Below, piece by piece: positions 1,390 through 45,482 of a stretch of DNA of 45,482 nucleotides (positions within the stretch are counted from its first letter, which is position 1; each line of letters opens with the position of its first letter). The DNA comes from Chromatiaceae bacterium (GTDB lineage Bacteria > Pseudomonadota > Gammaproteobacteria > Chromatiales > Chromatiaceae): NCBI GenBank assembly GCA_013426805.1, contig JACDZG010000053.1:1-45482 (forward strand). The letters are read 5' to 3'. The position numbers were made by a program, and so were the translations under genes. Below the pieces are notes generated by a model. The model saw only the letters and a program-made list of their open reading frames with translations, made no database searches and was not told where the DNA came from.

Positions 1390-1414
1390 AGCGGGACCCG
1401 GTCGCGCGGCGGTG

Positions 1415-6647: not shown

Positions 6648-6648
6648 G

Positions 6649-8178: not shown

Positions 8179-8224
8179 CTGCGCGTCTTCCCGCGGTCAA
8201 AAATGTCGGACAGCTTAGCCTCTC

Positions 8225-9392: not shown

Positions 9393-9627
9393 CGAAGTAG
9401 ATCGGAAAGCGTTCGGTGATGACTCGGTGGGTCGGCGAATCGCCATTATTACTGCCTCGGCCAAGCCGAATTGAAGAGACGCACCGCGTCCACCTTAATA
9501 ATGCGAGGATTGTGGCTGCGGGTTGTGGCGGCTTCGCCGATGCACTCGGCCGCGGATGGGATGCGCTTGGGCGTCACCTTGGATTTTGCGGATGGTCGAG
9601 CCACCCCGGCGCTGGCCAGGGATGCAC

Positions 9628-10907: not shown

Positions 10908-13900
10908 TCAGGACCCCACTGCGCTGAGGTCTATCATGGCGACTTGTCCTGCATCGCCCGTCGCCCCCAGCGAGTGCTCATGCTCGTGCAAGCGCAGCAG
11001 ACAGTTGGATTCTTCCTCAAAGAGGTGGTGCAGGCGATCCATGTCCGGCTCGAAATTGCAGTACACGTCGATCAGGACCTGGCGTTCCAGACGAGAAATC
11101 GTTATATACAGGCTGGCATAGTCGGCATCTTTCTGGCCGCTTTCCAGTTGCCGCGCCGAAAATTCCACCACCTTTTGGTATTCCGCCTCGGCCTGTCCGA
11201 CGTAATTGACCAGAATCATCGGGTCACGTTTGGCCAGCTTACGCGGGCTGAGGGGCGACAGCACATCCCACCATTTGAACCGCATCGGCAGGTTGAGCAG
11301 CATGTTCATGAAGCTGATGTTGAAGCGATTGGCGAAACGCACCTTGTTGCGCATGCCCTCGATCATGGCAGCAGGATGGTCCCTATCCACCAGCACGAAG
11401 AGCGGCAGGATGTCAATGAACAGCCCCAGGGTATCGAAGTAGGAGACATCTTGGTACTGGCGCCCTTGGAACAGTAACTTGAGCGGGATGGCGTCCTGCT
11501 CCAGGAAGCGCCCCAGGGTGTAGCACAACACCGCCAGGCTGATCTCCCAGGTGGCGTCGTCATCGTCCGCCAGACGATAGCGGTCCAAATCCAGGATATA
11601 GCGCATCGCTTTCATGCGCGGCTGGCGGCGGGCCAGGATCCGTTGTTCCACCTGTTCCTTGGCAACCCGAAAAGGTTCCAGCGCAAAAATCTCGATCAGT
11701 CGCTGCTTGTCGATCCCCTGGGGGCCGCGATTCAACTGCTCCAGGTAAGTGCGGAAGCTCTTGACCGGTTCCAGCGGCGCCGTCGTACCGGCGCGCAATT
11801 GGCGGTAGCGACTCAACAATTGTCGGCGCAGCACCTGACCGCTCATATTGTCGAAGATCGAGTGGTCCAGGTTGAACAGCAGGGTGTAGCGGCAACGGTG
11901 AAATCGGAGCAACATCACCCGGTACATCACACCCGAGGTGCGGTCGCAGCTCTGGGTGTTTTCCGCCGCCATCATGCGCTCTACCAACTGCGCCTGCAAA
12001 TCCGGCACACAGTCGCCCAGATCCACCAGCGGGATCACCAGGGGCTGCCCGCTCGGGCCATATTCGTCCCAGCGCGCCTGCCCCAGGCGGTTGCGACCGA
12101 GCCGGCTGCGCATCAGGCCCTGCACGCCCACCACGTCGGTCAATGCCTGGTCCAGCAAGGCCCGGTTCAAAGGCTCATGGAAATCGATGAGGTAAAACGT
12201 CGCTCGGCGCTCTTGCTTCAGGAACATTTGCTGAAACGGGCTGAGCGGATAGCGAGCCACCACCTCACCGGCGAAAATACCGGCGTTCAGCGCCGCCATG
12301 CCGTCGGTCACGGCGGCGGTTAGTCCGGCGAATAATTTCGCCGGCTCCTGTTCCGCCAGTCCCATGGCCCGCCAGGTTTCCTGGGCCTCGGCGGCCTCGC
12401 CAGAGGCCGGACGACGGGACCAGGGCACCACATGATGAGGTTGCAGATCCGGGGGCAAATGCAGGCGGCTCAACAGTGCTTCGGCGGTGCCTGCCTCGAC
12501 GAACACCGCATCATCAAGATACAGGATACGGATCGCTCGCCCCTGGTACGGCACGCTGTGAAAACAGGCCGCCAACCCAGCCTCCTGGTGAAAATGCTCG
12601 AGCAGGGCGGGCAGGGTACGGATGGTGCCGAATTCCCCCTGGCGGTTGTCGAACAGGTAGCGGGCCAGGAGGCGCAGGGTCGGATGGTTGAAGACTTCGT
12701 TCGGCATCAGCTTGATGCCGTACTTCTCGAATTCCGACGTGAGTTGCGCCACCTTCAGTGAATCGCCGCCCAATTCGAAGAAGTCTTGGTCCAGGCCGAT
12801 CCGAGCGATCCCGAACAACTCCGACCACAGCTTGTGCGCCAGTGCTTCGTAGTGCTCCGGCCCCTCGCCGGCGAAGGCCAGAGCGGCTTCCCCTGACCGG
12901 TCGGCCGTAGCCTCAGTCTCGGTCTTGGGTGGCAGCACTGGAGCGAACAGACCCTGCCGATAGGCCGCCAGGACGGCCTGCTCCAGCCCGCCCTGCATCA
13001 GGCGCACGGCCTGCTCCATCAGGGCGCGGCTCGGCAGCGCGGGCACCAGGGGCAGAAAAATGCGGTTCCAGGCATGATCTCCCAGCAGGGCACGGCCCCG
13101 GCGGTCCAAATCCATCCCGACCCGCGCCCGCGCCATCTGGTCAGGGGTGTTGCATAAGGCATCGCCGCCAGTCCACACGCTGACGAAACCGGGGCGCTGC
13201 CGCGCGAGCCAGGCCAACAGGGACGGATGGAACCGGCCGCTGTCGATGCAAGGAGCGATGAGGCGGTCGCCGAAAGGCTCAAAGCCATCGCGGGGCCGGT
13301 CGGCGCAGACATCAACCAGCACCACCCCATCCACTGGCTGTGGCGGTTCGGCTAGTTGCCAGCGCTCGGCGCTGGCCAGCGCGCTACCGATCGGGACCTG
13401 GGCAATAAGGAAGCCGCATTCCAGAATGCGGCGTAACTTGCCGCTGTCAGGGAAACACAGGGTTTCACCAAAGCCGGCCCCGCGGGCCACCCGCTGCCAG
13501 TGGTCTAGATCGGTCAGGGGCGAGCGGCTACGCTCGGCATCATCGAAATGCCACCAGCCATCGGCCAGCCCCCAGATCAAGTCGATATAGCGCCGCATGC
13601 GGATACGCTCCAGCATGCACATCAGACCACCGTCGCGCAACAGGCGCCGCGCCGTACCCATACTGAGCGCCAAGCTGGAGGTGGCGTGCAACACGTCGAA
13701 GGCCACCACGAGATCGAAACTGTGGGCATCCAGCCCCTGCTCCTCGGGGCTGCGGGTAATATCAAAAACGCCAAAAACATGGTAATCCAGACCCGATTCC
13801 AAGGCGAATTCTTTGGCGCCGTCGAGAAAACTTCGGCCAATGTCGGTGAAGTAATACTCCACCGGCACGCCCCGCAAGAACTCCGCCAGGCGCCGCATGG

Positions 13901-16900
13901 TCATGCCCCAGCCACCACCCACCTCCAGAATACGGATCGGTCGGCCGGCGGCGTGACGGATCAATTGCCGGAAGACCTCCTCAAATACGACCCGCACGAT
14001 TTTCTCTTCCAACTCCTGGATGGAGCCGACATAGGAATTCCGCAACATGGCGTTGCTGCCACCCGGGTAAATCACGGAAATCGGCAGCACCTGGCCGCAT
14101 AAAGCCTGGGGGTAGGCGGCTACGCAGTGTTCGAGGACCTGGAGGGCGCCTGTAAACAAGCTGTTCTCGGCCACCAGATCGGCCTTGATAAGACTAAGTT
14201 CCCGCAGGGTATCGGGACTGCGCAATACGTTGTAGACCTCTCCCCAGGGCTCCACCACGCCATCCTCCACCAGCATTGCCAGAAAGTAATCGACGTATTT
14301 TTCCAAGGAGGCGATCACGCCCATGGCCTGTTTGAGCTGCTCGCGGGTGAAACGATGCCCCGGCACGAGTTTCAGGCAGGAGTCCAGGTATCGCGCCACC
14401 AAGCTGGTGCAGGCCTCATCAAGCAGGGCGTGGCTGCGGCTGAAGTCGGACAGGCCGAACCGGCGGAAATCCAGATCCTGGGCCTGATCCAGCCAGCGGC
14501 GCAATTTGTCACTGTCGATGGCCAGGGGGCTCGGCCGCGCCGTCGCCGCCTGGTAACTCAGGACCAACGGCAGTACCCGGGCACCACTGACCTGCGCGAG
14601 GAGTTCCGCCAGGTCCGTGACCGGAAAGTCCGGCAGGGCGACCAGCCCCAGGGTCATGCCAGCGAGACCTACCCAGGTCGGCGGCAACGCCAGGGGCAGC
14701 AGGCGATAGACACGGCGCCGACCCTTGGCATAGGCTGCCAGCAGGGTTTCGCGATCGGCATCGTAGATTTCCCGCTCCAGCAGCAGTGCCCGCTCCATTT
14801 CCGGCAGATCGCCGGAGAACAACACCGCGCGCACCTCGAACCCGGGGCAGGTCGCACGCAGACTGCGCAAGCCGCCATCCAGTTCCCGGGCCGCGAGGCC
14901 AGCGTCGGGATCCAGGTCCGGCAGGGCCAGCAGGCAGCGGCAGACCTGTCCCGGCGATTCCGAGCGCAGCACCAGGGCCAGGCGTTGCAGACGGTCGAAC
15001 AGGGCCCGCAACGCGTCCTCGTTGCGACACCGGGCCAACCAGACGATCAACCCGGGCAGACCGTCACCGGCCTTCAAGGAGCGAATCAGGCGTCGGTAAT
15101 CGCTGGTTCGGGCCGTATCGAGGAGGAAGCGATGGCCGGCCTCCTGCCGGAAGGCACCGCCCCGGCGGCCATACACCAGACGCAGGCCGCTGACCTGCGC
15201 CAACGGCTTTTCTTGCCGCGGATTCTCGACCAGGGCCAGACAGGCCTTGACGCCGGTGGAATGGTCCAAAGTCGGCAGCAAGCCGGTCTGCCAGGCGGGC
15301 GCCAAAGGCAGGTCGTCTTGGCCTTGACCACTGCCCTGGGCCCCGGACAAGCCAGCGGACTCCAGCAGCCGGTAGAGGTCGCCCCGACCGATCGGAAAGG
15401 CATGCCGGGCAAAGGGATAGAGCGGAGCCGCCACCTTGTTGCGGCTTTGCCGACGGTAATAGCTCGGCCAGTCCGGCACCACGCCCTGGCCCCACAAATC
15501 GCCCAAGGCATAGGTCAGGTATTCGCTGTCGTCCTGGTCCAGTCTGGCCGGGCGAAGCGCCGACACCAGGGCCAGGGGCCGATCTCCCGCGCTCTGGCGC
15601 AACAAGGCGCTCAGTACGGTGCCAGGTCCGATTTCGACAAACACCGTGTCCGACTCCGCCAGCAGGGTGCGCGCACCCTCGGCGAAGCGCACCGGGTCGC
15701 GCAGGTGGCGGACGTAATACTCCGGATCCACCGCCTCGTCGGGGTTGATCCAGGTGCCGGTGACATTGGAGACATAGGGAATAGACGGCGGGCTCAAATG
15801 AAGCCCGGCGAAGGCCCGCCGGAAGGCCGGCAGCGCCGGCTCCATTGAGGCCGAGTGGAAGGCGTGGCTGGTCGGCAGGCGCCGTGCCTGTAAACCGCGC
15901 CGTTCCAGCACCTGGGAGAAGGTCTCCATGGCGGCCAGCGGGCCGGATACGGTGGATTGTTGCGGACCGTTGGCGGCGGCCAGATCCACCCCGGGCGGCA
16001 GCCAACCAGCCAAGTCCTCAGCCGCAGCCGCCACCGCCAGCATGGCCCCGGGCGCCATGCCCCACATCAGCCGACCCCGCTCGACCACCAGGGTCATGGC
16101 GTCTTCCAGCGGCATCACCTCGGCCAGACAGGCGGCCACATATTCACCCAGGCTGTGGCCGATCATCGCCGACGGCTGGATGCCCCAATCCATGAGCAGG
16201 CGGGCCATGGCATATTCGACGGCGAACAGTGCCGGCTGGGCCAGGTCGGTGCGATTCAGGTCCTCATCGGCGGTCGGGTTCGGTGGTTGGTTGAGCAGGA
16301 GTTCACGCACCTGGAACACACCGAGGCCATCGCACACCACCAAACAACGCTCCAAGGCCTCCCGGAAGACTGGCTCGGTCTCATACAGCCCGCGGGCCAT
16401 ACCCGTGTATTGGGTACCCTGGCCGGGCAAGAGGAATACCACTTGCGGCCGGCCGCTGCCGACTCGGTGGCGATGCACCGCCTCGCCTCCGGCGGCGAGC
16501 CGCTCCAGCAATTCCGGGATGCTGCGATAGGCCAGGCTGCTACGCTGGCGCAAATTCCGGCGCCCCACTTGCAGGGTGTAGGCCAAGTCGACCGCGGAGG
16601 TGTCCGGATGACGCCCGAGATGCTCCGCCAGGGCCGCTTCCAACCGCGCCAACGCCGGCCCATCGGCGGCAGAAAGGCACAGGCTGTGCCACACGCGCCC
16701 GGGCAAGGACGGGGCAGCCGCGGGCGCTTCCTCGAGGATGACATGCACATTGGTGCCGCCGATGCCAAAGGAACTGACCCCTGCGCGCAGTGGATAAACC
16801 TGGTCCGGACTCCCTTCCACCGGCGGATTGGACCAGGGCCGGGCTGCGGTGACCACCCGGAACGGGCTGTTCGCGAAATCGATCTGGTGGTTGGGCTGGC

Positions 16901-18050
16901 GGAAATGGATGCTGGGCGGCAGTTGTCGGTGCTGCAAGGCAAGCACGGTCTTGATCAGAGAGGAAATGCCGGCGGCGGTGTCCAAGTGGCCGATATTGGA
17001 CTTGAGCGAACCGATACCGCAGAAACCCCGCCGCTCGCTACGAAAGGCATTTTTCAGCCCTTCGATTTCCACCGGGTCGCCCAAGGCGGTACCGGTGCCG
17101 TGCGCTTCCACGTAGGAAATGCTCACCGGCTCCACATCGGCCATATGCATAGCGCGGCGGATCACCTCGGCCTGGCCTTCGACACTGGGCGCGGTATAGC
17201 CGACCTTGCGGGACCCATCGTTGTTGGCACTGGTGCCCCGGATCACGGCCCGGATGCGATCCCGATCCCGCAGGGCATTTTCCAGGGATTTCAACACCAC
17301 CGCGCCCATACCGTTGCCGAGCGTGGTGCCGTTGGAATTGTCGGAGAACGGCCGACACACACCGTCCGGCGAGAGAATCATTCCCTCCTCGTAAAGGTAA
17401 CCGTTTTTGTGGGGGAGACTAAGCCCGCTACCCGCCGCCACCACCATGGAGCAGGCACCGGTCAGCAACTGGCGGCAGGCCAGATCCACTGCATAAAGCG
17501 AGGTGGAGCACGCGCTGTAGACCGTAACGCACGGGCCGCGCAGATTGAGCTTGTAGGCGATACGGGTGGAAACGAAATCCTTGTCGCTCAACTGGACCGT
17601 GGCGAACTGGGCCGAGGTGCTCTCTTTGGTGTCGAGCAGGGCGTTCAGTTCCCAACCGAAATTGCCGGACGCGCCCGCGATCAGGCCGATGCTGCCCCGG
17701 TATTGCTCGCTGATATAGCCGGCATCCTCCAAGGCATGATAGACGCATTGGTGCAGCACTCGCACCTGGGGATCCATCAAGGCGGCATCCCGGGGCGTAT
17801 AATCGAAAAAAGGGGCGTCGAAAAACTCGATACCGGGGAACACGCCCTTGACCTTGACGAAATTGCTCATCCGGAGCAGCTCGGGATGGACCCCGGCCGC
17901 CAACAGGTCTTCGTCGTTGAACCGGTCGACGCCGCACTGGCCCCCCATGAGTAACTCCCAGAACTCATCCGCATCGGCGGCGCCGGGGAAACTGCCTGCC
18001 ATGCCGATGACGGCGATTTCGAGCCCGGTGCGGGAGGTGTTGAGCTTCAT
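10908..18050 (-). CDS. PKS: KS-AT-C-methyltransferase-ACP-terminal C-like domain
   Basis: A 2380-residue last synthase. KS 10-440 has Cys181 (YSACSTSLYA), His317 and His355 (SNIGH). A cis-AT at 535-830 has GHSLGE (Ser633) and TSHAFHS (His732), the HAFH signature of malonyl specificity. A 900-1165 region looks like a structural, truncated KR-like linker without a Rossmann GGxGxxG. The C-methyltransferase at 1200-1560 has a SAM motif ILEVGGGWG (1374-1382) and FDVLHATSSL. The ACP has Ser1764 (FFELGGDSLKV). A 130-residue linker follows. Residues 1933-2330 form a condensation-fold domain whose HHxxxDG reads DHSIFDN, so HxxxD is kept. It should add an alpha-methylated, unreduced C2 unit and then release or cyclise the chain with the last domain. 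There is no KR, DH or TE. The start overlaps the previous stop (ATGA). Unlike the three trans-AT modules upstream, it carries its own AT. Confidence 0.9.
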   Translation of the reverse strand: MKLNTSRTGLEIAVIGMAGSFPGAADADEFWELLMGGQCGVDRFNDEDLLAAGVHPELLRMSNFVKVKGVFPGIEFFDAPFFDYTPRDAALMDPQVRVLHQCVYHALEDAGYISEQYRGSIGLIAGASGNFGWELNALLDTKESTSAQFATVQLSDKDFVSTRIAYKLNLRGPCVTVYSACSTSLYAVDLACRQLLTGACSMVVAAGSGLSLPHKNGYLYEEGMILSPDGVCRPFSDNSNGTTLGNGMGAVVLKSLENALRDRDRIRAVIRGTSANNDGSRKVGYTAPSVEGQAEVIRRAMHMADVEPVSISYVEAHGTGTALGDPVEIEGLKNAFRSERRGFCGIGSLKSNIGHLDTAAGISSLIKTVLALQHRQLPPSIHFRQPNHQIDFANSPFRVVTAARPWSNPPVEGSPDQVYPLRAGVSSFGIGGTNVHVILEEAPAAAPSLPGRVWHSLCLSAADGPALARLEAALAEHLGRHPDTSAVDLAYTLQVGRRNLRQRSSLAYRSIPELLERLAAGGEAVHRHRVGSGRPQVVFLLPGQGTQYTGMARGLYETEPVFREALERCLVVCDGLGVFQVRELLLNQPPNPTADEDLNRTDLAQPALFAVEYAMARLLMDWGIQPSAMIGHSLGEYVAACLAEVMPLEDAMTLVVERGRLMWGMAPGAMLAVAAAAEDLAGWLPPGVDLAAANGPQQSTVSGPLAAMETFSQVLERRGLQARRLPTSHAFHSASMEPALPAFRRAFAGLHLSPPSIPYVSNVTGTWINPDEAVDPEYYVRHLRDPVRFAEGARTLLAESDTVFVEIGPGTVLSALLRQSAGDRPLALVSALRPARLDQDDSEYLTYALGDLWGQGVVPDWPSYYRRQSRNKVAAPLYPFARHAFPIGRGDLYRLLESAGLSGAQGSGQGQDDLPLAPAWQTGLLPTLDHSTGVKACLALVENPRQEKPLAQVSGLRLVYGRRGGAFRQEAGHRFLLDTARTSDYRRLIRSLKAGDGLPGLIVWLARCRNEDALRALFDRLQRLALVLRSESPGQVCRCLLALPDLDPDAGLAARELDGGLRSLRATCPGFEVRAVLFSGDLPEMERALLLEREIYDADRETLLAAYAKGRRRVYRLLPLALPPTWVGLAGMTLGLVALPDFPVTDLAELLAQVSGARVLPLVLSYQAATARPSPLAIDSDKLRRWLDQAQDLDFRRFGLSDFSRSHALLDEACTSLVARYLDSCLKLVPGHRFTREQLKQAMGVIASLEKYVDYFLAMLVEDGVVEPWGEVYNVLRSPDTLRELSLIKADLVAENSLFTGALQVLEHCVAAYPQALCGQVLPISVIYPGGSNAMLRNSYVGSIQELEEKIVRVVFEEVFRQLIRHAAGRPIRILEVGGGWGMTMRRLAEFLRGVPVEYYFTDIGRSFLDGAKEFALESGLDYHVFGVFDITRSPEEQGLDAHSFDLVVAFDVLHATSSLALSMGTARRLLRDGGLMCMLERIRMRRYIDLIWGLADGWWHFDDAERSRSPLTDLDHWQRVARGAGFGETLCFPDSGKLRRILECGFLIAQVPIGSALASAERWQLAEPPQPVDGVVLVDVCADRPRDGFEPFGDRLIAPCIDSGRFHPSLLAWLARQRPGFVSVWTGGDALCNTPDQMARARVGMDLDRRGRALLGDHAWNRIFLPLVPALPSRALMEQAVRLMQGGLEQAVLAAYRQGLFAPVLPPKTETEATADRSGEAALAFAGEGPEHYEALAHKLWSELFGIARIGLDQDFFELGGDSLKVAQLTSEFEKYGIKLMPNEVFNHPTLRLLARYLFDNRQGEFGTIRTLPALLEHFHQEAGLAACFHSVPYQGRAIRILYLDDAVFVEAGTAEALLSRLHLPPDLQPHHVVPWSRRPASGEAAEAQETWRAMGLAEQEPAKLFAGLTAAVTDGMAALNAGIFAGEVVARYPLSPFQQMFLKQERRATFYLIDFHEPLNRALLDQALTDVVGVQGLMRSRLGRNRLGQARWDEYGPSGQPLVIPLVDLGDCVPDLQAQLVERMMAAENTQSCDRTSGVMYRVMLLRFHRCRYTLLFNLDHSIFDNMSGQVLRRQLLSRYRQLRAGTTAPLEPVKSFRTYLEQLNRGPQGIDKQRLIEIFALEPFRVAKEQVEQRILARRQPRMKAMRYILDLDRYRLADDDDATWEISLAVLCYTLGRFLEQDAIPLKLLFQGRQYQDVSYFDTLGLFIDILPLFVLVDRDHPAAMIEGMRNKVRFANRFNISFMNMLLNLPMRFKWWDVLSPLSPRKLAKRDPMILVNYVGQAEAEYQKVVEFSARQLESGQKDADYASLYITISRLERQVLIDVYCNFEPDMDRLHHLFEEESNCLLRLHEHEHSLGATGDAGQVAMIDLSAVGS

Positions 18051-21000
18051 ACATCGTCCAGGTTTTTCATCAGATTTCTGGTCCGGAGCAGCGCTTGCCG
18101 ACCCTCGGCCAAGTCTTGGTGTTCGCGGGCTTGGCGCGCTGCCTCCGCCTCCTTGTCCTCATCCAGGTACTCGGCCAGGCGGGCGATGGTGGTGTACTCG
18201 AACAGTACCGCCACGGGGAGGTCCCGGGAGAAGGCCTCCTTGAGGCGATTGTTGATGGCCAGGAGATTGAGCGAGGTGGCACCGGCCTCGAAGAAATTGT
18301 CGTGTAGGCCGATGCCGGCAATACCCAGGACGTCGCAGCAGATCGCGGCGATGCGCCGGGCAGTGGCGCCGCTCGGCTCCACCATCGGCGTGGCGGCGAC
18401 GCGTTGGGCCAGGTTCTGTGCCACCGGCAACGCCCGCCGGTCCAGTTTGCCATTGGCCGAAAGGGGCATACGCTCCAACTGCCGGAAGAACGTCGGCACC
18501 ATGTAGGACGGCAGGGCGCTCAGACTGGCGCTCAGCTCCGCCGGGGCAATCTCGGCGACGCCAACATAGAAGGCGTGCAACTGCTTGCCGCCCCCCCCGT
18601 CATGGGCCACCACTGCCGCTTCGGTGACCAGCGGGTGTGCGGCCAGCACCCGCTCGATCTCGCCCAGTTCGACGCGAAAGCCCCGGATCTTGACCTGGGT
18701 GTCGTTGCGCCCCAGCATGTCCAAGCTGCCGTCGGGCAGCCAACGGGCCAGATCGCCGCTGCGATAGAGGCGGCCGCCGGGTTGGAAGGGGTCTGCAATG
18801 AATTTCTCCCGGGTCAACTCGGGACGGTTGAGATAGCCCAGGGCCACGCCGTCGCCGCCCAGGCAGAGTTCTCCATAGGCGCCCGGGGGTAGTATCGCCC
18901 CGGCCGGGTCCATGATATAGGCAGTGGAATTGGCGATGGGACGGCCGATCGGGATCCGCTCGGCGTAGTCCCGGCTGATACGCTGGAACGTGGAGATGGC
19001 CGTGTTCTCGGTAGGGCCATAGGCATTGACCAAGGTCAGCCCCGGGGAGGCTCGGCGCACCCGCGCGGCGATGCGCGGCGGCATGGCCTCACCACCCACC
19101 ACCAGATAGCGCAGGCCGGCAAACAACTGGTCGTCGGACTCGAACAAGGCGCTGAACAAGGCCGTCACTAACTGCAGGGTATTGATGTCTTGACGCTTGA
19201 TCTCCTGACGTAGCAGATCGGCATCAAGCAGGGTGGCCTCTTGGACCGGAAACAACTGGCCACCGTTGAGGAGCGGCCCCCAGATTTCAAAGGTGGACGG
19301 ATCGAACGCGGGCGAGGCCGTTTGCAGAAACCGGGTATCGGGGCCGTAGGCGATGTAATTGGTGTTCTTTACCAGGCGGACGATGTTGCGATGGCTGACC
19401 AGGCAGCCCTTGGGCTGGCCGGTGGAGCCGGAGGTGTACATGATGTAGGCAACCGCATCCGGTGCCACCGGCACCGGATGCGGCAGCGGCTCAGCGGAGG
19501 CACCATCAAGCACGATACAGGCCACGTCTGTCGGCATCTGGGTGCTGTTGTCGGGATGGACGCACACTAAGCGCACCGCCGCATCGGTCAGCATGAAACG
19601 CAAGCGTTCCTCGGCGATCTGGGTTTCCAGCGGCAGGTAGGCGGCCCCCAGGTAGAGCACCGCCAGTCGGCTGACCACCATTTCGATGCCGCGCGGAGTG
19701 AGCACGCCAACCGTATCGCCGGCCTGGACGCCGGCCCGGCACAACTGTCCGGCCAGGGTCAGGGCCGCCTGGCGCAATTGACTGTAGCTCAGGCTCCGCT
19801 CCCCGACGGTGACGGCCGGACGCAAGGCAAACTCCAGGGCACAGGCCTCGAACAGGTCCACCAGGCTGCTGTCCCGGGGATAGGCCCGGCGCGTGGCATT
19901 CAGCACCGTCAGCACCCGTTGCCGGTCTGGCTCGGCGCACACCGGCAACCGCCCCACCGGACAGTCCGGCTGTTGGACGATGGCGCTCAACAGACACACC
20001 AGGCTACGGCCAAACACTGCCATGGTGTCGGCGCCGAAACGGCGGGCGTTGTAGACGAAGCTCAGTTTCAGGTCCGCTCCCGGCGTCACGATCGCCTGGA
20101 AATCGTACTTGGGCACTTGATGTACCACCACGTCGTCCACGCGCAGGTCCAGACTCAGGGTCGACAATTGCTGCAGCTGCCGGGACAGGGGCAGATTCTC
20201 GAACACCAGGAGATGGTTGATGAGGCGATTTTTCAGCGGCGTGGCAGCCTGGATGGCGGCCAAGGGGTAATGTTCAAAGGCCGACGCAGCGAAACCCTGC
20301 GCCTGGACGCGGCCGGCCACCGTGACAAAGCTGTCCGCGGGCTGGGCCTGGACCCGCAGCGGCACGGTATTGATGAAGAGACCCACCATGCGCTCGATGC
20401 CATCCAGTTCTCCCGGCCGACCGGACACCACCGAGCCAAACACCACATCGTCACAATAATTGAATTTCTGGAGCAGTATGCCCCAGGCGGTCTGGAGCAG
20501 GTTGCCGACGGTGAGCTGCAAAGTCCGGGCGCAGCCCTCCAGACGGGCAGTGAGCGCCGCGCCGAGTTGGACATTGTGTTCACCCGCGGCCATGAGGCCA
20601 TCGCCGCGCTGATCGAAATACGGCACACCGACGTCGTTCTGGTAGCCATCCAGATAGCCCATCCAGTAGTCCCTGGCCTGGGCCGGCTCCTGGCGGCCGA
20701 TCCAGTGCAGATAGTCGCGGTAGGGTGCGGCCGGAGTCGGTGGTAGGACGGCACCGCAGAGGAAGTGCTCGTAGAGGCCGAAAAAGTCCTCGAACAGGGG
20801 CGCCAGGCTCCAGCCGTCGAGAATGATGTGATGGAACGTCAGCACCAGCCGGTGCCGATTCTCGGCCAAGCTCACCACCATCATACGCACCAGCAGGTCG
20901 GCGGAGATATTGAAACCCCGCTCCCGCTGCGCCTCCTTGGCCCGCTCCAGTTCCGCCTGCGCCGCAGACTCCTCCATGCCGATCAGGTCCAGCCACTCCA

Positions 21001-21262
21001 CTGGTGCCTCGCGGTGGCGCAGCACTACCTGGCGCGGCTGGTCGGTCTTGCGGAAGCTGAAAATGGTGCGCAACACGTCATGCCGGGCCACCAGGGCCAC
21101 GAAACTCGTGCGCACCGCGGGCAGGTCCAACGGGCCGCTCATAACAAAGTCAAACTGCTCGATGTACGCGACCGACTCCGGATTGCGGGCGAAGTCGATC
21201 AGCATTCCCTCCTGCAACGGCGTCAATCCATAGACGTCTTGCACGTTTTCCTTGGTAAGCAT
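18047..21262 (-). CDS. NRPS module: C-A-PCP
   Basis: A 1071-residue single NRPS module. C domain 10-445 has FHHIILDG (His144, His145, Asp149), so it should make a peptide bond. A domain 465-945 is complete: [11 protein letters not shown] (609-619), FDPSTFEIW, NAYGPTENT, YRSGDLARW and Lys939 in SANGKLDRR. Reading the pocket against GrsA gives D-P-F-Q-V-G-A-A-I-K, which I cannot match to a known amino acid. PCP Ser997 lies in DNFFEAGATSLNLL, a form often seen in PCPs that hand over to a KS, which fits the PKS encoded next. The C-terminal tail (residues 1030-1071) is charged and helical and ends RNLMKNLDDV, a possible docking element. GAGGAAA upstream of the ATG supports the start. The 60-bp gap to the previous gene contains nothing else. 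Confidence 0.92.
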   Translation of the reverse strand: MLTKENVQDVYGLTPLQEGMLIDFARNPESVAYIEQFDFVMSGPLDLPAVRTSFVALVARHDVLRTIFSFRKTDQPRQVVLRHREAPVEWLDLIGMEESAAQAELERAKEAQRERGFNISADLLVRMMVVSLAENRHRLVLTFHHIILDGWSLAPLFEDFFGLYEHFLCGAVLPPTPAAPYRDYLHWIGRQEPAQARDYWMGYLDGYQNDVGVPYFDQRGDGLMAAGEHNVQLGAALTARLEGCARTLQLTVGNLLQTAWGILLQKFNYCDDVVFGSVVSGRPGELDGIERMVGLFINTVPLRVQAQPADSFVTVAGRVQAQGFAASAFEHYPLAAIQAATPLKNRLINHLLVFENLPLSRQLQQLSTLSLDLRVDDVVVHQVPKYDFQAIVTPGADLKLSFVYNARRFGADTMAVFGRSLVCLLSAIVQQPDCPVGRLPVCAEPDRQRVLTVLNATRRAYPRDSSLVDLFEACALEFALRPAVTVGERSLSYSQLRQAALTLAGQLCRAGVQAGDTVGVLTPRGIEMVVSRLAVLYLGAAYLPLETQIAEERLRFMLTDAAVRLVCVHPDNSTQMPTDVACIVLDGASAEPLPHPVPVAPDAVAYIMYTSGSTGQPKGCLVSHRNIVRLVKNTNYIAYGPDTRFLQTASPAFDPSTFEIWGPLLNGGQLFPVQEATLLDADLLRQEIKRQDINTLQLVTALFSALFESDDQLFAGLRYLVVGGEAMPPRIAARVRRASPGLTLVNAYGPTENTAISTFQRISRDYAERIPIGRPIANSTAYIMDPAGAILPPGAYGELCLGGDGVALGYLNRPELTREKFIADPFQPGGRLYRSGDLARWLPDGSLDMLGRNDTQVKIRGFRVELGEIERVLAAHPLVTEAAVVAHDGGGGKQLHAFYVGVAEIAPAELSASLSALPSYMVPTFFRQLERMPLSANGKLDRRALPVAQNLAQRVAATPMVEPSGATARRIAAICCDVLGIAGIGLHDNFFEAGATSLNLLAINNRLKEAFSRDLPVAVLFEYTTIARLAEYLDEDKEAEAARQAREHQDLAEGRQALLRTRNLMKNLDDV

Positions 21263-21322
21263 GGATGAGTGGTTTCCTCAAACTAGATGTTGCGGCGAAG
21301 CAGCGGCTGGCGGCGACAACCT

Positions 21323-26806: not shown

Positions 26807-26814
26807 AGGACGGC

Positions 26815-31584: not shown

Positions 31585-31616
31585 GATCGCTATTCAGGTA
31601 AGGGGATGACCAGGCA

Positions 31617-36359: not shown

Positions 36360-36384
36360 AGTCCCTTTCTCCCGCCGTCCGCGG

Positions 36385-37647
36385 TCATGCCGCGTTAGGC
36401 CGATAGCCGCCCAACATCTTGGTAGTACGGGTGGTTTCCAGTATCTGGTGGTAACGCCAGTCCCGCTCATCCACGGGCGTACCCTTGGTGGCGAAGATGC
36501 GGGCCAGCAGATCAAGGGCGATGCGACATTCCTGTTCGCTCGCCGGGCGCGCCTCGCTTTCCAGTTGCTCCTGCAGGCTTTGCAGTTGGCGGTAGGGTTG
36601 CACCACGCCCTGCTGGTATTGGTCCTCGTTCCAGTTCTGGTTGCGGGTGCTCACCGCCACCGCCATACATTTGGTCACCAGGGAGGGCGGTTCTTGCATT
36701 GCGCGCAGATCGGCGGCGAACTCATCGTCGATCAGGCGCTGGTCGTCGTCTTCATCCAGGGCGTAGGCCTTGGCCCCCGGCAGATTGACCTGCACCAGGC
36801 GCTTGAGCACCCCCCGCGGCCCCGCCTCAAGATACACGTCCATTCCCTCTTCATGCAGCAGTGCCAGGCTGTCGGACCAGCGCACCGCACCGGTGAGCTG
36901 GCGCACCAGGGAGACGGCGATATCGCCCGGATCGCCGTGGGGACGAGCGTCCACATTGGCGATGACCGGCAGCGTGGGCCGGGACAGGTGGAGGGAACCG
37001 ATGCATTCAGCCAGGGCATCCGCAGCCGGTGCCATGTAGGGGCTGTGGAAGGGGCCACTGACCTTGAGCGGGATGATGACCGCGCCGGCCTTCTTCAGGG
37101 CCTGGCCGGCCCGCTCCATGGCAGCAAAGGTACCGGAGAGTACATGTTGATTACGGGCGTTATAATTGGCGATGACGAATTCGCTGCCGTAGCCGGGCTG
37201 CTCGCGGCAGATGGCCTCCACCTGATCGCGCGCCAACTGGGTCACTGCGTGCATGCCGAGCCGGCTGCGATCACCGCAACGGCCCATGAGCAACCCCCGC
37301 TGGCGCGCCAAACGCAGGCCATCTTCAATACTCAATGCCTCGGCCGCCACCAAGGCCGATAGCTCGCCCAGGCTATGACCGGCCAGGTAGACCGGCGTCA
37401 GGCCGGTGCGGGCGCAGAACTGCCGGTATGCGGCAACGCTGCACAAGAGCAGCGCCGGCTGAGTATTCTCGGTTTGATCCAGGACCTCGGGCGGACCTTC
37501 AAAACAGAGCGTCTTCATGTCCAGGTCCAGCACGGCGGAGGCCATATCGAACAGTTCCCGTGCCGCCGAGTCTTCCTCGTAGACCTTCCTGCCCATCCCG
37601 ACATACTGGGAACCCTGGCCCGTGAACAAGACAGCAATGCGCTTCAT
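36385..37647 (-). CDS. Free-standing malonyl-CoA:ACP transacylase with C-terminal extension
   Basis: A 420-residue trans-acting acyltransferase that should load malonate on the ACPs of the AT-less modules. It opens with [19 protein letters not shown], has GHSLGE at residues 90-95 (nucleophile Ser92) and GPFHSPYM with His201. A FabD-like AT is about 300 residues. The extra ~115 residues (305-420, including NQNWNEDQYQQGVVQPY and ALDLLARIFATKGTP) form a helical extension of the kind seen on some trans-ATs of lipopeptide and trans-AT PKS systems. Its role may be partner recognition (inference). The ATG at 37647 overlaps the preceding stop (ATGA), which is why I prefer it over the frame start four codons earlier. 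It lies right after the first synthase, between an AT-containing and an AT-less protein. Confidence 0.93.
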   Translation of the reverse strand: MKRIAVLFTGQGSQYVGMGRKVYEEDSAARELFDMASAVLDLDMKTLCFEGPPEVLDQTENTQPALLLCSVAAYRQFCARTGLTPVYLAGHSLGELSALVAAEALSIEDGLRLARQRGLLMGRCGDRSRLGMHAVTQLARDQVEAICREQPGYGSEFVIANYNARNQHVLSGTFAAMERAGQALKKAGAVIIPLKVSGPFHSPYMAPAADALAECIGSLHLSRPTLPVIANVDARPHGDPGDIAVSLVRQLTGAVRWSDSLALLHEEGMDVYLEAGPRGVLKRLVQVNLPGAKAYALDEDDDQRLIDDEFAADLRAMQEPPSLVTKCMAVAVSTRNQNWNEDQYQQGVVQPYRQLQSLQEQLESEARPASEQECRIALDLLARIFATKGTPVDERDWRYHQILETTRTTKMLGGYRPNAA

Positions 37648-40600
37648 GACTGACTCCAATGGTGATTGTCGCGGGCCGTCGGAGGCGTAAGGGCCACCGT
37701 AGGAGCCTGGCCGCCCCCGACCAATGCCTTTACAAACTTAAGATAATTAGCAACGAAACGTGTCATGCCGGGCGCCGCGAGGCGGCCGCCGTCGTAGTCC
37801 AGGCGCACCGCGAACCGGTCTTCGGTCAACCTGAGCCGCAGCACCAAATCGAAACCGTAGCGGGTGCTGCCGCCATGGCTCGCCGCATCCAAGAGCAACG
37901 GCCGGACACCCTCGGGCAGCGCATGGGGCATCACCCCGACCGGCTCCGGCAAGGGCTGCAGGCCAGCGCTCTCCGCCTGCCGCCGCACCCAGGCCGCCAG
38001 TTGCCGCAAGCCGCGCAGGGTGTCGAAGTCCATGTCGATTGACTGGTATTCGTGTCGGCCCGGGAAGGCCACGGCCAATTCAAAACGGACCGCACCAGTC
38101 AGCTTGTGCAGATAAAGCCCGAACAGGACGGTCGCCACTTCAAAGGGACTGGCGGCCAGTTGGCCAGCCACACTGATCAACTGACGGCAGGTTTCCGGCT
38201 CCAGCCTGGCGTTGAGGGTTTCGGCCTTGATCGGACCATCGACACCGGCGAGCAAGGCGCTCGGGAACGGCAACTCCGGCGGCAACGGCTGACTGGCGCC
38301 CAGGCTTGCGGCAATCCGCTGCTTTAGGGCGGCGACGGTGGGATTGGCGAAGATGTCCGCTACTTCCAGCACACCCGGATACAGTTCCGCCAGGGCCGCG
38401 TGCATGGACACCAGGCTGAAGGAGTTGCCGCCGACATCAAAAAAGCTGTCCTGGGTACCGATGGGTCGCTCACCCAGGATGCGCTGCCAAATCCGGATGA
38501 TGTCCCGCTCCAGGGCGTCGGTCGACACGTCGCTACCCGACTCCGGCACCTGCACCGGCACGGATGCCGGCAGCAATTCCGGGAGACTCGCCCGGTTGAT
38601 CTTGCCGTTCGGCGTGCGCGGCAAGGAATCCACCCGAAACGCCATTGTCGGCACCATGTAGGCGGGCAACTCCCGGGCCGCATGGGCGCGCAGTACCTCG
38701 GCGAGGGGCCTTCCGGCCAGCTGGGCCTCACCATCGGGTCGCACTTCGCAATAGGCAATCAGGATCGGGTTGCCGGGCGACAGTTCGCGTACCACCACCG
38801 CTGCCAGGGCGAGCGCCGGGTGTCGTTGCAGCACGGCCTCGATTTCCTGCAGCTCAATGCGATAACCGCGCAGCTTGATCTGGCTGTCGCTGCGGCCGCA
38901 ATAGACCAATTCGCCGTCGGCCGTCCAGGCCGCCTTGTCCCCGGTACCATACATGCGCCCGGCAGCGACGAAAGGATCAATGAGGAACACGGCCGCGGTC
39001 TTTTCCGGATCGTCCAGATAGCCCCGGGCCAAGCCATCACCGGCAATCCACAAGTCCCCAACACAGCCAATGGGTTGGGGCCGCCAATGCATATCAAGCA
39101 CGTAGCAGCGGGTATTGGCGATGGGTCTGCCCAGGGTCACCGACTCGGCCCGGGTCAGCTCCTTCACCGTGGACCACACCGTGGTCTCCGTCGGCCCATA
39201 GACATTGAACAGGCGCAGGCCAGGTACCGCTTGCAGCGGCGCCAGTAGGGCCGCCGGAAAGGCTTCTCCGCCCAGCAGCAGATGTCGGACATCGGCGAAC
39301 ACCTGGTCGGCGACGTGGCTGGCCAGCAAGGCCTGAATGCGGCTGGGCGTGGCCTGGACGACATTCACCCCGCTCGCGCGGATCAGGCCGGCCAACTCGC
39401 CGGGGTCGCGTTGGGCCGTTTCCCCGGCCAGCACCAGGGTGCCGCCGGACACCAGGGTCAGGAACACCTCAAGCACGAAAATATCGAAAGAAATCGTGGT
39501 CAAGCCCAGCACCCGGGGCCGGGGCGGCAGTTCCAACGCGTGGGCCATTGCGTAGAGAAAATTTACCACGCTAGCGTGTTCGATCATCACCCCCTTAGGC
39601 TGGCCAGTGCTTCCGGAGGTAAAAATCACGTAGGCCAGGTCGTCGGCGCGTGGCGGCACGATGGCGCCCTGCGGCCCGACGGGCCAGAGCCGCTCCGGGT
39701 CCAGCACGCGGCCGTTGAAATCCAGATGCCGACTGAGTTCGGCCGTCACCAGCAAGACGGAGATACGGCTTTTGTCCAGCATGTAGGCAATGCGTGCCGC
39801 CGGATACTCCGGGTCCAGGGGCACATAGGCGGCGCCGACCTTGAGCGTCGCCAGCATGGCCGCGATCATGCCCAGACCGCGGGGCAACAAAATGCCGACG
39901 TAATCGCCGCGACGGACCTCGGCCGCGACCAGATGGTGAGCCAGTTCATCGGACAGGACATCGAGTTCGGCATATGTCAGCTCCCGCTCGGCAAAGACCA
40001 AGGCCGGGTCCTGTGGCCCGGCAGCCACCGCTGCCTGCCAGCGGCTGACCAAGGTTTCCTGGCGCGGGAAGGGGCGTTGGGTCTGGTTGAAGCCCTCCAG
40101 GAGAGCGGTCCGGTCGGTGTCGGTCAGCAGGCTTAGTCCCTGCAAGCGGCTGTCCGGCTGGGCCAGGATACCCCGCAGCAGGCACTCGAAATGGTGTGCC
40201 CAGCGCACCATGGTGGCCTCGGTGAACAGCCGCTGGGCATAGATGAAGTGACCGTGGAGGCAGCCCTGCTGTTCGGTGATCTCCAAGGTCACGTCGAAGG
40301 CGGAACCCCGGGACGGCACCGGCCGGGCATCCACCCTGAAGTCCGCACCATCCCCCACCCGACGGTTGCCGTTTTCAAAGATGAACATGGTGTCGAATAG
40401 GGGATTACGGCTGAAATCCCGGGGCAGCTTGAGACTGCTGACCAGTTCATCGAGAGAGCAATTGGGCTGGGCGTAGGCGTCTATACAGGCCTGACGCACC
40501 TCGTTGAGCAACTGCGCGAACGGTTTGTCATCGCTGGCCTGGGCGCGGATGATCAGGGTCTGGGCGAACATGCCGACGGTGCGCTCGAAATTGCCGTTGC

Positions 40601-43600
40601 CACGCCGGTCCAGCGGCGTGCCGATGCATAGGTCGTCTTGTCGGCAGAGCTTCCCCAGCAATACAAAATAGGCCGTCAGCAGCACCATGTAGGGCGTGAC
40701 ACGCTGGACCCGGGCCAGTTCGCGCACGGCGGCTTGCAGGTCCGGGCCGAGCAGAAAGCGCTGCGAGGCACCGGCGAAATCATTGTGTGGCGGGCGGGGA
40801 TAATCGGTCGGCAGGGCCAGCAGCGCCGGCAGCGGTTGCAGCCTGGCCAGCCAATACTGCCGTTGCTGCTCGTACTCGGGGGAGGCCATGAAGGCTTGCT
40901 CCCAAGCCACGAAATCGGCATAGGCAGCGGACACCGGCGCCAGCGCCTCGTTGCGGTAGAGTTGGAGGAACTCCTCCACCAGAATGGAGAAGGCAATACC
41001 ATCGGCGATCAGGTGATGCAGATCAAGGAACAGCACCTGTTCTCCTGGTCGATCCTGGAGCCGCACCAGGGCTGCCCGCCACAGTGGCGGCTGGCTCAGG
41101 GTGAACGGCTGGATCAAATTGTGCAACAGCCCATCGAGTTCGGCGACGCGGCATTCCCGGTGCGCCAAGGGGATGGACACGGTGCCGGTCTGGCGTCGCA
41201 CCACGGCTCCGTCGTGCCAGACGTAGCCGACGCGCAGTAGGGGGTGGCGTTGGGCCAGTCCGGCCAGCGCCTGCGCGATGTGCTGCGGCGATACCGCGCC
41301 GGTCAGACTCAAGGCACCGGTCACATGGTAGGCGTACTCTCCCCCCTTGATCAGGCTCAGCACATACATGCGCCGCTCCTCCGAAGACAGGGGCAGGTCG
41401 ACCGGCAGGTCGGCGCTGACCAGTCGCTGGGCCAGGCGAAAGCGGAAGCCGCCCCGGCGCAGTTGGGCCACCGCCTGTCGCAGGGCGACAAGGATATGCT
41501 CGGCGTCTTCTTCGCTGTGGGCCAGGGTGAAAAACGAAGTGCGTCTTTCCCAGACATAGACGCCGTCCAACTGCATCAGCCGGAACAATAGATTGACCTC
41601 GAGGGAGGCGTGGGCCGGGTCCGTCGTCAGGCGCGACTCAAAGCGGTACAGGGAGCCGAAGGAATGGGCTTCCAGCGGCACCGCCTCGGCGGCGAACAGC
41701 GCATTGGCCCGCTCGCAGAAGCGGCGGGTGAGGGCGTTGACCCGGTCAATCAATTGTGTGCCTTCCGCTTCCAGCTTGCTCAACACGGCATGGGCCGCCG
41801 CCATGGCCAAGGGGTGTTTGCAGAAGGTACCGGCAAAGAAGGTGGTTTCGCGGGTCGGGCCGGAGTCGTCGCCGAACTCCCAGGCGCCGCCGTCGATGGC
41901 GTCCATAAAGCGGCTGCGGCCCGCCACCACGCCGATGGGCAGGCCCCCGCCGACCACCTTGCCATAGGTAGCCAAGTCGGCGCGAATACCATAGTAGGCT
42001 TGGACACCGCCGGGATGGATGCGGAAACCGGTGATCATTTCGTCGAAGATCAGGGCCGCTCCCAGCTCGTCGGTCAGATCGCGCAGGGCCTGCAGAAATT
42101 CCCGGCTGTGGTTGTGAGGCGCCCGACTCTGCACCGGTTCCACCAGGACCCCGGCCAGTTCACCGCCCACCGCGCGTATTGCCGCCAGGCTGGCCGCGCC
42201 GCCATAGGGCACGACCACGGTGTCTTGGATCATGGACTCGACGATGCCAGGGGCCATCGGCAGCGCCCCCTCCTCGCCGGCCTCGGCCAACACGCCATCG
42301 AAGCTGCCGTGGTAGGAATTGATGAAGCGCACGATCTTGGGGCGCCGTGTCACCGCCCGGGCCAGGCGCAGGGCCACCATCACCGCTTCGGTGCCGGAGT
42401 TGCTGAAGGCCACTCGCTCGGCACCGGTCAGGCGGCAAATCATGGCCGCCACCTCCCCCGCCACATGCATCTGCGGCCCGAGGATCATGCCCTGCTCCAG
42501 TTGAGCCTGAATCGCCTCCATTATGAAATCGGCGTTATGACCGAAGAACATAGCGCCGTAGCAAGCGGCGGTGTCGAGGTAATCGTTGCCGTCGATATCC
42601 TGGAAGTGGCTGCCTCGCGCCCTGGCAGCCACCACCGGGTACGACATTTCCTTCAGCGTCAGGCTAAAGTTGAGGGTGGTGATCCAATCGGCCAGGGACG
42701 TGCGGTAGCGTTGGGCGTAGGCCTTGGAGTTGGGGGTTTTCGTCGCCACCCGCTCCGCCAGGCCGCGGATAAAGGCGAGTTGCTCGTCATTCACGTCCTC
42801 CTGGTGCAAGGTCATTCCGCGCAGCGCATTTTCTCCGGCCGTGGCGGCCGGTCGGGGCGCCGGAATCCGCGTCGGCGCCACCGCACTGGGAGCAATCGGC
42901 ACCGGCGTCTCGCCCCGCAAAAGCGCGAGTTGCTGCCGCATGAGGTCCAATTGGGCAGCGACGATGCCCGCCAGATCGGACGCAACCGCCGCTGGGACAG
43001 CCTCAGGAACAACCACCGGGGCCGGACGCAAGCTGGCCCGGGCCTCGCTGCTGAGCTGGGTTTCGATATAGCCAGCAATCAGGGCCGGGGTGTGCAGTTC
43101 GGAGAAGAAGCGACTCACCGGCACGGACACGCCAAAGCGCTTGACCAGCCGCTTGTCCATTTGCATCAGCATGAGCGAATCGAGGCCCAGCTCAAAGATA
43201 TGGGCGTCATCACCGATCTGGTCCAGGCGGAAGCCGGCCACCCGGCCGATGATGTCGCGAATGTCCCGGGTGATATCGGCCCGCAGCCCGTCACTGGCGT
43301 CCGATTCCGGGCCGGCGGCCAAAGGGCGGGCCGCAACAGTTGCTCGGGTCGGTGCCAGACCGGCGGCCTGGGACCTCAGATCCTCGAACCAGTAGCGTTG
43401 CCGCTCATAGTGAGTATTGGGCAGATCGGTTGGAACGGGACGGGGCGGGCCATGGCAGGCCTGCCAGGCGATGGCGTGGCCCCGGAGATAGAGGGCGGCC
43501 AGACTCTGATTGATCTGCAGCCATGCATCCTTGCTTTCGCGCAGGGATGGCAGAAAGGCCAAGCAGTCATCGCTGGCGATCTGCGCCGCCAGCCCGGACA

Positions 43601-45425
43601 GGGCCGCCGTGCCACCGATCTCGACGAAGGTCTCGGCGCCCTGAGCCAGGGCCGCCTTGAAGGCATCTCGGAACCGCACCGGATGACACAGATGGGCGCT
43701 CCAGTAGGCGGCATCCATCTCCGCCGCCCGGGACAAGAGGCCACCGGTCTGGCTGGAGATCAGGGGAATGCGCGGCTCATGGAAACGCACGCCGATCAGA
43801 CCCGCCGCCAGCTTGTCGGCACTGGCGGCCATCAGGGGCGAATGAAAGGCATGGCGCATAGGCAGCACTTCGGTGAACAGCCGCGCCTTGCGCGCTGCTG
43901 CCAACACGGCCTTCATGCCTGCGGCCCGACCGCTGAGCGTGCAGTTACTGTCGGTGTTGATGGCAGCGATGAACACCTCCGACTGGCCGGCCAGCAAACC
44001 GCGCGCCGTGGCTTCGTCGCTCAACAGGCCGGCCATCGCGCCGTCGGACGGGGTGTCATCCATGATGGCGCCGCGCAGGGCCACCAAGGCCACCGCATCT
44101 TCCAACTCGAGAATGCCTGCAACGCAGGCGGCGGCGTATTCACCGATGCTGTGACCGAGCACCAGGGTCGGCTGCACACCTAAGGTACGCCACAGGGCAG
44201 TCAGTGCGTATTCTATGGTGAAGATCAAGGCCTGAGACACCCGCGCCGACCCCAGGTCGGCGGCGCTTCCATCGAATGCGCTGACCTTTAGGGAAAGGCC
44301 CAGATGGGGGGCAAACAGTTGCGCACAGAGGTCGAAGGCGGTGCGGAATGCCGGTGCGCTATCATAGAGACCGCGGCCGATGCCCGGATAGACCGAACCC
44401 TGACCGGTAAACATAAATACCGTATGCTGCGGCGTGGGGGCCGGCCGCTGGGGCTGCCAGTCGGACAATTGCTTAAGCACGGCAGCAAAATCATCGGCCA
44501 CCGCGGCAAAGCGCCAGGGATGGCCGCTGCGGCTGCGATTGACCGCGTGACAGAGATCGGCGAAGGGGAGCGCTGCCAAGTCGTCCCGTGCGGCCCAGTC
44601 TTCGAGTGTTGCCTGCAGGCCGGCGGCACTACGGGCGCTCAGGGTAAAAACATAGGAGCCGCGGCGGGGCGCGACAGCGGGCGCTGTCGCGACCGGCTGG
44701 TATTCACCCAGTACCAGATGCGCATTGGTACCGCTGATGCCGAAGGAACTGATGCCGGCATAGCGCGGTCTGCCGCCCGTCTCGGGCCAGTCTCGGCCAT
44801 CGGTCACCACCTCCAGCGGCAGGGCCGACCAGTCGACCAGGCGGTTGCCGAGGTTGAAATGCAGATTGGGCACCAGGCGGCGCTCTTGCAACATCAACAC
44901 CAGCTTGATCAGTCCGGCAACCCCGGCGGCGCTTTCCAGGTGGCCGAGGTTGGATTTGACGCTGCCTAGCCACAGGGACTGGCTCCGCTCCCGGAAGACG
45001 TGGGCCAGGGCGGTGAGCTCCTGCGGGTCACCGAGCCGAGTGGCGGAACCGTGTGCCTCCAGGTAATCCAGGTCCCTGGGGGTCAGTTGAGCGTCCGTCA
45101 AGGCAGCCCGGACAAGGCTTTCCTGGGCTGGACCGCTGGGCACGGTCAGGCCGCCGCTACGGCCGTTATGGTTGACCGCACCCCCCTTGATCACTGCCAG
45201 AATCAGGTCACCATCGCGCTCGGCGTCCGTCAGGCGCTTGAGGAGCACCAGGCCACAGCCTTCGCTGCGGATATAGCCATCGGCGCCGTCGTCGAAGCTG
45301 CGGCAGCGGCCACTGGGGGACAGGGCCTCCAATAGGGAAAAGCTGAGGTGGCCATCGATTCGGAGGATGAGATTCACGCCGCCAGCCAACGCGGCGTCAC
45401 AGCGCCCGTCGCGCAATGCGCGCAT
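37644..45425 (-). CDS. PKS/NRPS: KS(partial)-AT-ACP-aminotransferase-C-A(Gly)-PCP-half C
   Basis: At least 2593 residues, 5' end missing. The KS begins mid-domain ([11 protein letters not shown], residue 10) and keeps His125 and His162 but not the cysteine region. Cis-AT 335-640: GHSIGE (Ser426), MRHAFHS (His528, malonyl type). ACP Ser750. The PLP aminotransferase (900-1330, class III) has [19 protein letters not shown] (Asp1128) and Lys1156 in [10 protein letters not shown]; it should turn the beta-keto group into a beta-amine, as in iturin/mycosubtilin and microcystin McyE. C 1345-1780: HHLIADG at 1470. A 1785-2285 is complete ([11 protein letters not shown], Lys2275); its pocket reads D-I-L-Q-L-G-V-V-W-K, very close to the glycine code DILQLGLIW. 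PCP Ser2335. Residues 2395-2580 resemble only the second half of a C domain. An in-frame TGA 21 bp upstream of the first ATG and unrelated sequence beyond show a breakpoint. Translation from 45425 would give a dead KS. Confidence 0.88.
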
Positions 45426-45482
45426 CGCCTTAATTCTACTTCGTCACATTGGCAGTGTTTAGCCCGATCGCTCACGCCGTTG
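45426..45482. other. Breakpoint sequence upstream of the truncated KS
   Basis: On the minus strand the KS-like reading ([10 protein letters not shown]) can be followed back only to about 45437. Beyond that come AGT-AGA and a stop, and no frame encodes the expected KS cysteine region. The segment (TGTGACGAAGTAGAATTA in minus-strand sense, less GC-rich than the synthase genes) resembles the end of an insertion sequence starting TGT, but only 57 bp are visible. A mis-join near a contig end is the main alternative. Confidence 0.45.

Follow-up and report, generated by a model that had tools for sequence, protein, structure and literature searches.

Gene content and domain order

The window analysed here is the whole of contig JACDZG010000053.1 (45,482 bp, hereafter C318) from the Chromatiaceae bacterium assembly GCA_013426805.1. 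It carries a hybrid polyketide synthase (PKS) and nonribosomal peptide synthetase (NRPS) cluster of seven adjacent genes, read on the minus strand from 45425 to 10908 (Table 1). The first gene encodes the C-terminal part of a ketosynthase (KS), followed by acyltransferase (AT), acyl carrier protein (ACP), Aminotran_3-type aminotransferase (AMT), condensation (C), adenylation (A) and peptidyl carrier protein (PCP) domains. The second gene encodes a free-standing AT, and the next two each encode a KS, a dehydratase (DH), a ketoreductase (KR) and an ACP. Gene 5 has the order KS-ACP-C-A-PCP with a weak A match, gene 6 is C-A-PCP, and the final gene encodes KS-AT, a methyltransferase (MT), an ACP and a condensation-like domain. 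An earlier note on this DNA had given the same seven-gene order, which Pfam confirmed; gene 1, however, is cut by the contig end and its true start is not 45425. The layout claimed there, AT-containing modules at both ends enclosing three AT-less ones, was also borne out by Pfam: genes 3, 4 and 5 contain no AT, and the free-standing AT is of the FabD type and above its cut-off. In genes 3 and 4, Pfam also identified a RhiE-like KS linker.

The active-site motifs sought in the KS, AT, DH, KR, C, AMT, C-methyltransferase (cMT) and carrier domains were all present, with the exception of the A domain of gene 5, where A3 and A5 are gone, and the terminal condensation-like domain, which carries DHxxxDN. 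The cluster continues beyond 10908 with a protein of no assigned family and a thioesterase, both of which have homologues at the same place in the two relatives described below.

Table 1. Features of the cluster and its borders, in window coordinates.
Feature	Position	Strand	Evidence
Target site TTAA (45430-45433) and end of multicopy element up to the contig end	45430..45482	.	Genome repeat search, flanks
Gene 1, 3' part: KS(C-terminal part)-AT-ACP-AMT-C-A(Gly)-PCP-tail	37644..45429	-	Pfam; 2593-aa open frame 37644-45425
AMT domain of gene 1, class III aminotransferase	41466..42818	-	PF00202
A domain of gene 1, glycine-type code	38601..40037	-	Pfam; code read by eye, presumed key
Free-standing trans-acyltransferase, FabD type	36385..37647 (start codon chosen; open frame 36385-37659)	-	TIGR00128, 277.8 bits, cut-off 260.9
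Gene 3: KS-DH-KR-ACP without AT	31617..36359 (start codon chosen; open frame 31617-36515)	-	Pfam, motifs
Gene 4: KS-DH-KR-ACP without AT	26815..31584	-	Pfam, motifs
Gene 5: KS-ACP-C-A(decayed)-PCP	21323..26806	-	Pfam; alignment with relatives
A domain of gene 5, decayed: reading frame open, motifs A3 and A5 missing	21707..23101	-	Alignment, motif search
Gene 6: C-A-PCP	18047..21262	-	Pfam
Gene 7: KS-AT-cMT-ACP-C-like	10908..18050	-	Pfam
CurJ-like C-methyltransferase domain of gene 7	13416..14330	-	PDB 5thy, E 6.8e-40
Terminal condensation-like domain, DHxxxDN replacing HHxxxDG	11001..12278	-	Pfam, 57.1 bits, cut-off 30.6
Protein without Pfam or NCBIfam match; tentatively read as an outer-membrane beta-barrel	9628..10905	-	Homologue at the same place in both relatives
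Free-standing thioesterase	8646..9464	-	PF00975, 134.3 bits; 53-56% to relatives

The probably interrupted entry gene

A KS profile search of the genome returned 16 matches, among which were both parts of the KS of gene 1 (KS1). The part in the window covers PF00109 profile positions 184-252 only (C318:45222-45428), and profile positions 2-184 were found at the end of a second contig (G000:C257:55851-56378). The terminal frame of C257 encodes an AMP-ligase domain (PF00501, 169.4 bits), a PP-binding carrier domain and then the first part of the KS. The Cys motif of KS1 lies on the C257 side and both His motifs lie on the C318 side. The best NCBIfam match of the AMP-ligase is "fatty acyl-AMP ligase" (FAAL) at 323.5 bits, under that model's cut-off of 600. 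With both parts joined, the entry gene reads FAAL-ACP-KS-AT-ACP-AMT-C-A(Gly)-PCP. The beta-amino entry proposed in the earlier note is supported, but it had been read from a truncated gene, so that neither the start with a fatty acid nor the hydroxymalonyl set further upstream was recognised.

Upstream on C257, in the same reading direction, are two FtsX-type permeases, an ABC ATPase and a LolA-like protein, together with a 3-hydroxyacyl-CoA dehydrogenase (3HCDH), FkbH (249.8 bits; model cut-off, 146.65) and an acyl-CoA dehydrogenase. A small carrier-protein-type open frame, recognised by eye, lies between the last two. The 3HCDH, FkbH, carrier-like frame and acyl-CoA dehydrogenase would together form a hydroxymalonyl-ACP set. 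No O-methyltransferase was found by Pfam among the 10 C257 proteins scanned (shorter and more distant open reading frames lay outside the scan), which would favour hydroxymalonyl over methoxymalonyl. No monooxygenase family was matched by Pfam in either half of gene 1. In the stretch L009 13954-15874, the listed FkbH frame begins at 14567, inside the 3HCDH gene (end 14835), and the FkbH model matches only from residue 97, so the true FkbH start is probably later.

The terminal bases of C257 and C318 correspond to opposite ends of a repeated element, each end occurring at 11 places in the genome when up to 3 mismatches are allowed. The flanks printed for nine of the 11 left-end and nine of the 11 right-end places are all YTAR (TTAA, TTAG, CTAA or CTAG), and TTAA is found at the element junctions of both contigs. 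IS701-type elements use YTAR sites and are a possible family for the element here; no transposase was linked to these ends. One copy of the mobile element has probably inserted into KS1, leaving the entry gene interrupted in this genome. A working pathway can accordingly not be assumed for this strain.

A further copy of the same element end lies approximately 0.3 kb from the start of a second PKS in this genome (L010, G000:C45, 379-9483), a 2555-aa KS-AT-DH-ER-KR-ACP protein followed by a class I/II aminotransferase. Gene 1 itself carries a tail of about 190 aa after the PCP (37647-38273), which is present in all three genomes compared (39-47% identity). It aligns weakly to the C-terminal lobe of condensation domains (profile comparison, probability 50) and is possibly a docking piece.

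Relatives and the adenylation domain of gene 5

A contig scan that used the last 1501 aa of gene 7 as query yielded 22 stretches matching a pattern, two of which encode a relative. These are found in the metagenome-assembled genomes of Janthinobacterium sp. palsa_998 (PKWL01000037.1, relative J) and Chromatiales SZUA-493 (QKFD01000055.1, relative C). By alignment, the gene order is identical in both, with identities per gene over the aligned parts of 49.8-60.7% between the window and J and 58.1-71.8% between the window and C. In the relatives, gene 1 is one unbroken stop-to-stop frame of 3080 aa (J) or 3478 aa (C). Both relatives have counterparts of the two FtsX-type permeases, the ABC ATPase, the LolA-like protein, 3HCDH, FkbH and acyl-CoA dehydrogenase alongside, the carrier-like frame being outside this comparison. 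The genes for 3HCDH, FkbH and acyl-CoA dehydrogenase immediately precede gene 1 in each of the three genomes.

Pfam searches of the relatives covered genes 1, 5 and 7 of J and genes 1 and 5 of C. The AMT lies between the ACP of the first module and the first condensation domain in the window and in C (76% identical), and is absent from gene 1 of J, with no similar domain in the 60-kb J stretch examined; elsewhere in the J genome there are four aminotransferase matches, at 30-35% identity. The gene 5 homologue of J (L059 4884-11810) carries an extra condensation-family domain after the PCP, without counterpart in the other two; its position would suggest an epimerase-like domain, and profile comparison places it in the condensation superfamily only. 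A search for the cluster in 142 genomes of near relatives, with the terminal 530 aa as query, gave a match at E <= 1e-20 in its own genome only. In 2729 plasmid records, no relative of gene 6 reached at least 60% identity, the best among the matches listed being 39.6%, and a plasmid comparison of window positions 1-8600 gave no match.

The A domain of gene 5, described as dead in the earlier note, indeed lacks the A3 and A5 core motifs, with A7-like and A8-like strings still there. To this it can be added that the domain is intact in J and C (Pfam and alignment), and its decay is therefore a loss specific to the lineage of the window. The identity of this domain is 37% between the window and C, 29% between the window and J, and 55% between C and J. 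These values, the lost motifs and the element end in gene 1 would suit a cluster composed entirely of decaying pseudogenes, in which the gene 5 A domain was lost first and the element entered gene 1 later. The reading frame of the domain is nevertheless open over approximately 465 codons. In a neutral simulation from the A domain of C to 67% identity, a rough test with settings chosen by the analyst, zero stops were seen in 9 of 300 runs (mean 3.4 stops), and the open frame weakly favours retention over plain pseudogene decay. The neighbouring condensation and PCP domains also keep 63% identity and their active residues, the HHxxxDG motif and the carrier Ser. Decay of the whole cluster is thus considered unlikely.

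The other catalytic and carrier domains compared (genes 1, 3, 5, 6 and 7; gene 4 was not split by domain) have 50-80% identity between the window and C, and linkers and tails fall to 41%. With no decay visible elsewhere, and with the contig junction not seen within a single read, the living strain could have and express an intact cluster. The break would then be an artefact of assembly or culture, and the element would be absent or carried by part of the population. This is quite improbable given that the two KS halves meet where the contigs carry opposite ends of an element with 11 places per end and, at the printed flanks, YTAR throughout. Because the entry KS is probably interrupted and the gene 5 A domain has decayed in frame, the pathway is instead read as remodelled here and perhaps silent.

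The intact motif and carrier Ser and the open frame would also agree with a gene 5 module that is still used, its carrier being loaded by another A domain (e.g. that of gene 6) and two amino acids being kept. No free-standing NRPS A domain was found among the flanking proteins scanned, and skipping of the module is equally possible; continued use is a serious contender that falls somewhat short of even odds. A literature search on loading in trans gave no papers.

Substrates, predicted pathway and known counterparts

The codes of the A domains were taken from alignments inspected by eye and interpreted with a specificity key that is presumed here. The code of gene 1, DILQLGVVWK, is what we take to be a glycine type, in agreement with the glycine assigned in the earlier note. 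The gene 6 code of the window (DPFQVGAAIK) has no assignment, and those of C (DALWLGGTFK) and J (DAFFLGGTFK) are presumably of an aliphatic type. For gene 5, the code of C (DGPFSGGVFK) has no assignment and that of J (DGFFLGVVFK) is presumably of the isoleucine type.

The nearest solved relative of the gene 7 methyltransferase is CurJ (5thy, E 6.8e-40), and DisA was also matched. It carries LHAT and thus the HAT motif, which is catalytic in CurJ-type C-methyltransferases, and homology to CurJ and DisA predicts a C-methyltransferase, upholding the methylation proposed earlier. Pyrrolinone-type endings with an O-methyltransferase occur in jamaicamide and althiomycin. Such an ending was rejected for gene 7, as the best match is CurJ and the seven PDB matches are PKS or related methyltransferases, all of which we take to be C-methylating.

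Both cis-ATs, in genes 1 and 7, carry HAFH, and the hydroxymalonyl set could therefore feed the AT of gene 7 and place the oxygenated unit at the end of the product rather than at its start. CurJ-like methyltransferases act on the alpha carbon, which fits malonyl better as the gene 7 unit, and in each of the three genomes the genes for 3HCDH, FkbH and acyl-CoA dehydrogenase stand just before gene 1. An oxygenated end is accordingly judged improbable, and use of hydroxymalonyl by module 1 is preferred.

The terminal domain of gene 7 carries DHxxxDN in all three genomes in place of the canonical HHxxxDG and is called condensation-like only; its PDB matches are weak (best E 3.4e-05). Matches at E <= 1e-5 were found in 27 of 369 class genomes sampled, its own included, with at most four candidates scored per genome. 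Over its full length the domain was found at its own locus only and in none of the other 368 genomes sampled. The next best matches scored 46.8 bits (another locus of the same genome) and 45.4 bits, and none of the other rows listed extended beyond position 189 of 452. Relative J retains the domain despite the missing AMT, and a beta-amine is therefore unlikely to be the nucleophile in all members. It is possible, as a speculation, that an alpha-hydroxyl is the common nucleophile.

If substrates, collinear use of the modules and release are as predicted, the FAAL would load a fatty acid and module 1 would add an oxygenated C2, with hydroxymalonyl supplied by the 3HCDH-FkbH-ACP-acyl-CoA dehydrogenase set as the most likely unit. 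The AMT would convert the beta-ketone to an amine, and glycine would be added. The two AT-less modules of genes 3 and 4, served by the free AT, would extend glycine to a 6-amino-2,4-hexadienoyl unit. Gene 5 would contribute one unreduced C2, followed by one or two amino acids, and gene 7 would add an alpha-methylated C2. The condensation-like domain and/or the thioesterase would release the product, and the FtsX/ABC and LolA-like set may export it.

The observed domain order and motifs, the C257 half and the co-linear relatives support, with a probability of roughly 60%, a single orphan assembly line that would make a hybrid lipopeptide-polyketide started by a fatty acid, with its entry probably interrupted in this genome and the pathway remodelled and perhaps silent. 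Several points weigh against this interpretation. The C257-C318 join is deduced from complementary KS halves and shared element ends rather than seen in a spanning read; because TTAA also occurs at other copies of the element, it is the KS halves, and not the target site, that justify pairing the two contigs. The cluster of relative C is divided between two contigs, whose connection is deduced from the gene 4 halves that they carry. The FAAL name comes from a match below its cut-off, and the assignment of hydroxymalonyl to module 1 rather than gene 7 is argued by elimination. In a PDB ranking of four KS domains, those of genes 3-5 score alike against trans-AT KS and the KS of CurL and the erythromycin synthase. 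The contig scan depends on exact 8-residue patterns, which bring only close relatives within its reach. No characterised match was recognised in that scan or in the literature (titles and abstract starts of the papers listed, one listing covering 20 of 6,565), with MIBiG and antiSMASH outside the scope, so that one may have escaped notice; within these limits the earlier note's impression of an unfamiliar whole architecture holds.

Each part of the assembly line has a known counterpart: the iturin/puwainaphycin entry, trans-AT modules, FkbH cassettes and CurJ-type methylation. As in the mycosubtilin, iturin and bacillomycin entries (MycA, ItuA, BamA), a single gene combines a FAAL and an aminotransferase with one module each of PKS and NRPS type. 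Here, in contrast, a hydroxymalonyl set lies ahead of the entry, which leads on to glycine and then to trans-AT diene modules. FkbH-type hydroxymalonyl- or methoxymalonyl-ACP cassettes are known from zwittermicin and FK520. They likewise have 3HCDH, FkbH, a carrier and acyl-CoA dehydrogenase side by side; the present set differs in having no O-methyltransferase among the scanned C257 proteins and in lying upstream of an aminotransferase module. The AT-less KS-DH-KR-ACP modules, RhiE-like KS linker and free FabD-type AT are features of trans-AT PKSs, but here these modules are flanked by cis-AT modules at both ends.

Genes of the MycA/ItuA/BamA type form the beta-amino fatty acid (PMC4219810). 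The puwainaphycin synthetase (PuwC-E) has a FAAL start and a PKS module with aminotransferase, as here, and its tailoring is assigned to an aminotransferase and a monooxygenase domain (PMC4219810); here no monooxygenase is matched in gene 1 and an FkbH-type set is found instead. Solanimycin of Dickeya solani shares a Gly-type A domain and a polyketide acyl group that bears an amino function, together with a transaminase and a trans-AT; it has one PKS and three NRPS genes and different tailoring, and the figure legend names no FAAL or FkbH (PMC10204066). Based on the architecture described there, solanimycin was rejected as the product. In the part covered of a review of FAAL pathways (PMC11837247), whose clusters were not checked one by one, no Pseudomonadota product was recognised as having this architecture.

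We conclude that this is a real orphan cluster family, with known parts recombined in an order not met in a description, though the product may not be made here. A bolder version, held tentatively and as rather doubtful, is that a small family makes 2-hydroxy-3-amino fatty acid heads by hydroxymalonyl-ACP extension and an in-line AMT without a monooxygenase, followed by a glycine-derived dienoyl unit made by trans-AT modules. The line would be closed by a new subclass of condensation-like release domain, and members would gain or lose building blocks. If correct, the family, from a probable phototroph and two metagenome-derived relatives, would offer three natural differences on a fixed scaffold (AMT absent, epimerase-like domain present, A domain decayed). 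These would be test cases for domain-loss tolerance in hybrid cis-AT/trans-AT lines, and the entry would be a candidate for making 2-hydroxy-3-amino acyl groups without a monooxygenase.

In the 7.6-Mb host genome, the type II reaction-centre family (PF00124) is matched twice; a cyanobacterial control matches it too. The two host matches are probably L and M proteins as in purple bacteria, and the host is probably photosynthetic. Downstream of the cluster are three transposase-type genes, matching DDE_3 (2799-3338), DDE_Tnp_1 (3891-5702) and Mu-transpos_C_2 (6649-8178).

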